Shown here: positions 54,101 to 57,100 of the stretch, one piece after another
How positions within the stretch are numbered: the first letter of the stretch is position 1
Layout: each line of letters starts with the position of its first letter
NCBI RefSeq assembly: GCF_964340395.1
Contig: NC_135556.1
Coordinates: 22,767,723 to 22,831,722 of the forward strand
Direction: 5' to 3'
DNA length: 64,000 nucleotides
DNA from: Glandiceps talaboti
Taxonomy: Eukaryota; Hemichordata; Enteropneusta; Spengelidae
The notes under the pieces: generated by a model
Told to the model about the DNA's origin: nothing
The model's input: the letters and a program-made list of their open reading frames with translations, nothing else
Database searches by the model: none
Translations under genes and position numbers: made by a program

Positions 54101-57100
54101 CAGTTGTGCAGAGTTAGATTTTGCAAGGTTTGAGGTTTGTTTGCATGCGACTTTGTATGAAAGTGACTGCCACACAATGAAGGGAGCCTGTGGCAATCTG
54201 TATGCATTTCTTACATTGATCAGTGACTGCCACACAATGAAGGGAACCTGTGGCAATCTGTATACATTTCTTACCTTGATCAGTGACTGCCACACAATGA
54301 AGGGAACCTGTGGCAATCTGTATACATTTCTTGCCTTGATCAGTGACTGCCACACAATGAAGGGAACCTGTGGCAATCTGTATACATTTCTTACCTTGAT
54401 TAGTGACTGCCACACAATGAAGGGAACCTGTGGCAATCTGTATACATTTCTTACCTTGATCAGTGACTGCCACACAATGAAGGGAACCTGTGGCAATCTG
54501 TATACATTTCTTGCCTTGCAGCGCTGCCACTTTTCTAGGTCTTCTCACATGGTCATCAGTACCATGACCCAGTCTGTGGTAGTCACCCTTGCCCCTGTGG
54601 ATTAAAACAGTCACAGTATCAGTCTCAGGTTGTGTTTGTGTCATTTGTAATATCTATCTCCTAGTAACGTCTTTTGATTCTAGACATTAAGAGTTTTTCA
54701 TAGATGACATATCCCATATCAACTCATCAGCAAAATCTCTACAGATGTGGCTTGGAGCAAAATATCAGATTTTTTTTTAGATTCTCTCCTCGTTACAATA
54801 TGAATACTCACCAAGTGTACACTGCACCCGATTTGGTCAAAGCCACAGAAAACTGAGAGCCACATTCCACTTTACAGACACCCAGTCCAACCAATGACTC
54901 AGTCCTCTGTGGTGTTTTACAGCCATCACTACCACCTCTGCCAAGTTTACCGTAGTCTCCATCACCCCATGACCATACACAGTCATCATCTGTCAGACAC
55001 AATGTCTGAGCATCTCCACTTCCACAGGCTACATCAATCACACGGTAATCCTTCAAGGCTTCCACCTACAAGTATCAAACACAAAGCTCATTTCAAGGCG
55101 CAATGTAGAAGTAACAGTGGCAGTCAGCCGCTCAAAATATTTTCCTTCAATATCAAACAGCAGTAGGGGAACTGTTTTTAACTGTATTTTAAATACACAG
55201 CAACAATTTCAAATGTTAAAACTCAGTCACCTTTCACTGATACCGACATTTTTATATAATCCTCGATAACTACGTTTCCAGATTTGGACAAATTATCAAT
55301 TATTTGTTTTTGGTGTGATTCTCTTTTGGTGGTAGAAGTTTTTATATTTGTTGCTCTTTTTCCCAGTAAACCCATAGTAAACTGTCAAACGTACCTGTTT
55401 AGGTCTTGGTTGATCTTCACTATCACCATGACCAAGTCTACCATATCTGCCTTTCCCCCATGTATACAACTCACCCGTTGATGTGATACAAGCACTATGA
55501 GCACCTCCAGCTGCTACATCCACTACTTCCTTACCACGTAATGATTCTAATACTCTAGGTCTGTCACATTGGCTAGATTGAAAAGAACCAAAATTATCAG
55601 AAATCTGTTGTATGGTTACCACAAGAGCAGCACCATAGTGTCCTAGTGTTAAAAAAGCAGGAAGAAACCAGAATATTCTGGGAAAACCTGCATTGTTCGG
55701 CAGGGTCACATTGAGCTTCTTACATAAGACCTGGTTAAATGTTAATCAAACCCAGCCGATGCTTGGTGGGTTCAAATCTAGGCTGTAGAGGTAATAGTGA
55801 CGCCTATGAGGTAACTGTTTGACCACCAACAACCTCAAATTAACACGGGACAGATTCAAAGACAAGCTTATGCTTATACCTGGCCACTACACTCCATATA
55901 AATAAAAACTATCCATTATTCTAAAGGTATATGCCAGCGTTTATAAACTAATAATATCAAATTAATAACCATCATCAGTACTCTCAGTTTGGACCTTCTA
56001 CTTCATGTTCTCATTCCATGTTCGTGTTCATGAGTGCATAAAATCTGCTATATAAAACATTTACGTTCTAATCCATGTTCATGTTCATGTTCATGTGTGC
56101 ATAAAATCTGCTGTATAAAATACTTACGTTATCATTCCATATATGTTTTCATTTGTGCATAAAATCTGCTACAGTATATAAAATACTTACGTTCTAATTC
56201 CATGTCCTAGTTTGCCATCTTCAGCTTCACCCCATGTATACACCTCTCCTTCCTGAGACAAGGCTAGACAATGTTTACCACCAGAATTGACAGCTACTTT
56301 CTTGATAACTACATGTTGTATGGATTCTAGAAGTGTTGGTGTAGATACAGAGTCTGTACCACCTATGCCAAGTCTACCACCAGCACCATAACCAGTAGCA
56401 TATACCTATAGGTTGAGATTGAATGTCAGAGATCAGTTCTATCAAAGCTTGTATGTATATGTACTCAAATTGATCAGCTTGCCCAGAATTTAGTAATTCT
56501 AAGATTGTAAGAGGGAGTAGACTCCACTAGTTGCAAGAGAACGATTTTTTTCTCCTGTCCCACAATGTATATTAAATGTGCTTCAATGTTACTGTACATT
56601 TATCTTACAATTACATGTAGCTCTGTGAATAAATATATATTAAATGATATAATATCATATATTATTATATTTAGCTACAGATGAAGTATGTACTAATATG
56701 CTGTAATATACCACCTCAATATACACTCAAATTCATTCAGTAATATGGTTCAACAAGTGTTCAAATTTATGTTTGAGGACAATATACATATACATGACAT
56801 GGCGTGACGTGACATGACATGACATGATGACACATCATATTATGTTACAAACCATGCCTTATATCAGAATATGCACTGAGTATGCTATGTTACTTTACAC
56901 TACATACAATTCATTATTATCATAATGTCAATCCAACTTGCAAGTAAACAGTTATTACCTTACATTTTTCAGTCAAAATCACACCCCTTCAAAATTTCCT
57001 ACATAAAATTTGAACTAATAGTATGAAAATAAGGGCCCTCTCATCGTCACTTAACAAAAAAACATGCAAAGAATGACAATATATATTCTGTATCATTACC

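Follow-up and report, generated by a model that had tools for sequence, protein, structure and literature searches.

A 60-bp tandem array spanning an exon–intron border of HERC2

When the end of an exon is repeated several times into the adjoining intron, 5′ splice site included, which copy of that site does the gene use, and what would become of the protein if it used more than one? The question is raised by HERC2 in a window of 64,000 nucleotides (C9:22767723–22831722, the whole stretch analysed here), taken from a genome of 590 Mb in 47 contigs (23 contigs of 16–36 Mb total about 587 Mb). The 3′ part of the gene (63692 to 48131, minus strand) leads through RCC1-like exons to the HECT domain. 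One exon of the propeller adjoining the HECT domain (140 nt, 54455–54594, minus strand) ends in a 60-bp tandem array that carries on into the intron. We favour a reading in which the array is a minisatellite lying across the border, of the type known from amphioxus as a mirage, and in which splicing uses the first donor with at most traces of the others; we consider this probable, though some way from assured.

Architecture of the array

The array overlaps a real exon–intron border: Tandem Repeats Finder (TRF) delimits 5.9 copies of 60 bp with 97% matches at 54162–54518, and the exon ends at 54455. Five full units and one broken unit, read on the minus strand from 54514 to 54162, start inside the HERC2 exon and extend into the intron. 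Unit 1 (54514–54455) is all exon, being its last 60 bases, and units 2 (54454–54395), 3 (54394–54335), 4 (54334–54275) and 5 (54274–54215) are intronic copies of this exon end. The repeated unit is thus exonic sequence throughout. Unit 6 (54214–54162) is broken, without the GATCAAG donor end and with two additional substitutions. Units 1–5 differ pairwise at 0–2 of 60 bases, unit 1 matching unit 4 exactly. The unit ends read GGTAAG at 54455, 54395 and 54275, GGCAAG at 54335 and TGTAAG at 54215. The coding frame is open across all six units, because the unit is pure coding sequence with a length divisible by three. An original prediction for this locus had described six near-identical 60-bp units, the first of them coding, with three GGTAAG, one GGCAAG and one TGTAAG at the unit boundaries and a frame open throughout; each of these points is confirmed here, with the sixth unit broken, and the near-identity of the units upholds its proposal of recent expansion or homogenisation.

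The repetition stands clear of the local background. Copies of a donor-centred 30-mer at 60-bp steps match at 28–30 of 30 bases, compared with a best local match of 26/30, found once, among 1,360 30-mers drawn at random from the HERC2 region (array and microsatellite zones excluded). The array occurs at one place in the genome. It is barely credible that it is an assembly error and shorter in the animal itself. Tandem arrays are error-prone, and one amphioxus mirage is described as misassembled in a draft (PMC3087553), but individual units have differences of their own and the end is degraded, the assembly is of chromosome scale, and four similar arrays lie elsewhere in the genome.

The two borders of the unit suggest how the array could have arisen. 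The unit start in the exon, CAAGGCAAG, resembles the donor 60 bases on, CAAGGTAAG, at 8 of 9 bases. Both borders read CAAGG(C/T)AAG, forming Q-G-K codons within the exon and the donor 60 bases later. Because they are so alike, the unit borders would be a natural site for slippage, and for the same reason every unit end would make a donor. Slippage or unequal exchange between the two similar sites may have duplicated the 60-base segment, and further exchanges could then have spread and homogenised the units. Unit 4 equals unit 1 in full, GGCAAG at the start included; in unit 1 that start lies within the exon. The GC donor at 54334 is therefore probably a copy of exon-internal sequence, brought there by exchange between units. 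Near-identical units 1–5 next to a degraded edge unit 6 give the array the form seen in amphioxus mirages.

Donors and the HERC2 product

The HERC2 assignment rests on the propeller, for which 3kci (taken here as human HERC2's third propeller) is the best match, and on a HECT exon downstream. The 140-nt exon has an RCC1 match (PF00415), and in our splice model it joins, in phase 1, a following exon of 96 nt (53839–53934, minus strand, placed by splice model and alignment) whose acceptor lies before 53934. Joined from donor 1 (AAG|GTAAGA, 54453–54454, minus strand), the product is 78 residues long and aligns full-length and gap-free to HERC2 chain 3kci_A, residues 290–367, with a best stretch of 142.3 bits and 67/78 identical residues (counted by hand on the printed alignment). 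The product of donor 2, the only other one aligned, falls into two fragments (69.8 and 86.3 bits) whose positions on the chain overlap. The exon therefore still ends at its conserved place, judged by the gap-free alignment, and donor 1 gives the conserved protein. The gene, its RCC1 propeller domain and the exon borders, all named in the original prediction, are upheld by the PF00415 match, the 3kci_A alignment and the splice model.

Further donors on the same strand accompany units 2–5: 54394 and 54274, with the same 9-mer as donor 1; 54334, a GC donor; and 54214, with T before GT. On a nine-base consensus matrix, 54454, 54394 and 54274 reach 6.8 bits each, which exceeds the median for the 19 HERC2 donors modelled. 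Site 54214 has 3.5, and 54334 has 0.85 after a 6-bit penalty set for GC. By consensus score alone, the units each offer a usable donor. The later donors, if used, would lengthen the protein by 20, 40, 60 or 80 residues without introducing a stop. Judging by the RCC1 blade pattern, one extra copy would repeat two blade strands just before the last strand. It had been proposed that donor choice adds 0–4 copies of a 20-residue segment to HERC2. The arithmetic of that proposal stands. The isoform family drawn from it is possible but not supported beyond the open frame and the identical donors, and of the two products aligned the donor-1 product alone is gap-free.

Equal donors might in fact compete. 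HERC2 would then be a mixture carrying 0, 1 or 3, and rarely 2 or 4, additional segments of 20 residues, mostly unregulated, in which one copy folds and others bulge as a loop. We regard this as possible but rather doubtful. Donors 1, 2 and 4 share one 9-mer in near-identical surroundings, every extended product keeps the frame without a stop, and repeat units of human IFI6 are reported to serve as splice donors (PMC4526556); the insertion would, however, fall within a gap-free conserved blade. A stronger form of the idea makes HERC2 a length-variable ligase, its competing identical donors inserting 0, 1 or 3 strand-pair segments per blade and the number on offer differing between individuals through an unstable minisatellite. 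This we think unlikely.

The unit ends could also be read as both ends of an intron. Under the model of a duplicated AGGT, the array would be an intermediate on the way to gaining or lengthening an intron or exon, and a unit could be excised as a 60-nt intron. The full units start with GT or GC, units 1–4 end with AG, and AG|GT stands at three unit ends. A tandem duplication across a border gave rise to an intron in potato (PMC4974935), and a similar model has been proposed for mirages (PMC3087553). As acceptors, however, the four unit ends score −2.8, whereas the 20 modelled acceptors range from 0.3 to 7.5, and the exon end remains at its conserved place; the chance we allow this reading is very slight. 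An intron of 17 or 77 nt, using TATACAG inside the unit, was also considered and was rejected on an acceptor score of −3.9 or −4.3.

Donor-spanning arrays elsewhere in the genome

Four more arrays span donors in this genome, and it is these that make the first donor the expected one. The second in HERC2 has three copies of 63 bp with 79% matches (56017–56205, minus strand) at the end of another propeller exon, 56405–56191; its second donor, 56127, would bring in two in-frame stops. The third, found with TRF, consists of 2.6 copies of 100 bp where an exon of a MIB/HERC2-domain gene ends (40622–40883, minus strand). The donors of this gene at 40833, 40733 and 40633 have one common 9-mer, the frame is kept by 40833 only, and joining from the first donor restores the domain (77.5 bits). 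The remaining two, L052 (two copies of 254 bp, C1:15037113–15037253 region) and L063 (about four copies of 52 bp, C2:9279554–9279709 region), both on the minus strand, are likewise tandem duplications of an exon end and its donor. In all four, the next donor leads to stops or a frame shift. For proper expression, these four exons thus require the first donor over a downstream copy identical to it in the nine scored bases, and the first donor is, as the simplest expectation, the one expected for the 60-bp array too. The mRNA would normally be spliced there, the copies leaving with the intron and HERC2 remaining unaltered; occasional use of a later donor, adding multiples of 20 residues, could be splicing noise. 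Competition among donors fits less well here, as such mixing at the four other arrays would spoil the message, and in published mirages splicing is reported to be undisturbed.

Several points weigh against first-donor splicing of a mirage-type array. Donors 54394 and 54274 equal donor 1 over all nine scored bases, so local sequence cannot account for a strict choice between them, and minor isoforms from these two donors are possible. Among the five donor arrays, the later donors stay in frame and free of stops in the 60-bp HERC2 array only; one such case in five is roughly the chance expectation if the units are of mixed origin, since a third of lengths would keep the frame and fewer still would avoid stops. 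The first donors of L052 and L063 are putative, having been assigned from an open frame and an RCC1 match. Among the matches listed, moreover, mirages are described for lancelets only, and the host genome is probably not a lancelet's.

The host's affinities are judged from its chromosomes and its tektins. The 23 large contigs are of chromosome size. Lancelets have 19–20 chromosomes. Both hemichordates with chromosome-scale genomes in PMC11175523 have 1N = 23, and a sea cucumber paper is also listed with 23 chromosomes. Three tektin exons, each from a different tektin, find their best match among solved structures in the sea urchin entry 8snb, with 176 bits for tektin-1, 266 for tektin-4 and 199 for tektin-2; the next entries, mammalian ones, reach 148, 170 and 157 bits. 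A search for GFP exons gave no match, but it gave none in any control genome either and so does not show absence. The first 10 kb of contigs C44–C47 yielded no recognised mitochondrial sequence. The animal is probably a hemichordate or an echinoderm.

How often donors fall in arrays bears on whether the copies serve a purpose. Minisatellites (period 15 or longer) occupy 4.8% of the whole window; in the HERC2 span the figure is 4.4%. Across that span we looked for local repeats around each modelled splice site, and a neighbouring copy exceeding background turned up at 2/19 donors and 0/20 acceptors. Three of the 19 donors are uncertain (62181, 60065 and 59354), and the intron after 57477–57788 was left out of the model. 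We widened the sample with 38 loci, 30 with RCC1 exons (30 of 72 matches) and 8 with tektin exons (8 of 20 matches), each scanned over a stretch that begins 30 bases within the domain match and ends 150 bases past it. Among these loci, L052 and L063 are the ones with donor-spanning arrays. Repeats lie on the donor side of 2/38, the acceptor side of 2/38, far downstream of 1/38 and far upstream of 4/38; they are as frequent far from the exon as on its donor side. The acceptor-side hits (L046 and L053) are arrays confined to the intron, and in the border tests they were counted as 0. The counts should be taken as approximate, because L068 has an exon in common with L069, as L055 probably has with L066; L058, which repeats an exon of the window, was removed.

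Set against coverage, donors show no enrichment in arrays, either for the 2/19 in HERC2 (p = 0.20) or for the 4 of about 56 overall (p = 0.28), a donor count that is biased upward by the HERC2 exon having been the starting point and that omits the TRF-found array of the MIB/HERC2-domain gene. Acceptors, at 0/57, differ neither significantly from donors at 4/56 (p = 0.057) nor clearly from the 4.8% coverage (p = 0.061). Arrays take in donors at much the same rate as other sequence, and such arrays are ordinary in this genome. These rates count against regulated, useful isoforms, in which the number of 20-residue segments would tune binding by the HERC2 propeller and the unit number would vary between individuals. 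The frame is kept, three of the five substitutions that fall in the part common to the units are synonymous (codons read by hand; too few to test), and unit number does vary in amphioxus mirages (PMC3087553). The five changes nevertheless give no sign of selection, arrays sit at donors at about the background rate, and GGCAAG of unit 4 is copied from within the exon, where unit 1 starts, and is not a kept donor. We consider such regulation highly improbable.

The MIB/HERC2-domain gene, or fragment of one, occupies 41124–40036 on the minus strand, downstream of the HERC2 3′ end and in the same orientation; its nearest solved relatives are HECTD1 and MIB1. Diverged copies of its exon end are also present past the next exon (40173–40036), at 39944, 39805 and 39770 (39720–39959, minus strand). 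Simple tandem duplication does not account for these.

Two other arrays of the window were considered as further border arrays and set aside, no exon border being recognised on reading the sequence and its open reading frames. One is a 66-bp minisatellite of about 8 copies at 11485–12053, within a plus-strand open frame of 275 codons. The other has 11 copies of 28 bp with 99% identity at 47726–48041, directly past the HERC2 stop codon and possibly in the 3′ untranslated region. Elsewhere in the genome, a 39-bp array of 18 copies with 96% identity (L009:4123–4836) has one open frame per strand. Exons for a trypsin-type protease and for a thrombospondin type 1 domain, possibly of one gene, lie on the plus strand of the window at 30740–36183.

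Comparison with known systems

Amphioxus mirages are described as minisatellite-like tandem duplications of exon–intron borders with units of 10–160 bp, a homogenised centre and regular splicing (PMC3087553). They are reported in Adh3, the globins BflGb6 and BflGb9, PGBD5 and troponin C, with a deviant unit at the edge (PMC3087553, PMC3902484). The HERC2 array resembles them in being a tandem array across a border, with splice signals in its units, and its 60-bp unit has a counterpart in lancelet PGBD5, where repeats of 60 and 108 bp are noted at splice sites (PMC3902484). In that gene a model had taken repeat copies as exon without RNA support, and the authors excluded it (PMC3902484). The HERC2 array differs in that all its intronic copies are in frame, and in that its host is probably not a lancelet. 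Mirages are also unstable in length, BflGb6 having haplotypes with 6 and 3 units (PMC3087553); by analogy, copy-number polymorphism of the HERC2 array is likely.

Among the matches listed for hemichordate arrays, HERC2 splice repeats and tandem-repeat multiple donors, there was no report of the HERC2 array or of mirages outside amphioxus. The present cases would thus extend border-spanning minisatellites beyond amphioxus, the genome here being probably not a lancelet's, with five donor cases coming from a small sample. One array that may be read through, beside four that must not be, amounts to a natural test of how a choice is made among equal 5′ splice sites.

Other systems share single features with this one. 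In a potato RdRp gene, an intron was gained by tandem duplication across an exon–intron border (PMC4974935). There, as here, duplication of a border supplies new splice sites; in HERC2, by contrast, no new intron is apparent and the unit ends score badly as acceptors. Internal tandem repeats (minisatellites) are described as lengthening exons or introns of human genes in segmental duplications (PMC2812944); those are recent primate paralogues, whereas the HERC2 array sits at a single place in a conserved gene. A further likeness is to repeats whose units themselves supply the donors. A study by Turri et al. in 1995 reportedly described a minisatellite with multiple splice donors in human IFI6 (6-16). 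Two downstream repeat units of IFI6 are stated to act as splice donors (PMC4526556). Both IFI6 and HERC2 thus have splice donors provided by repeat units, with the difference that alternative donors are reported to be in use in IFI6, whereas those of HERC2 are predicted.
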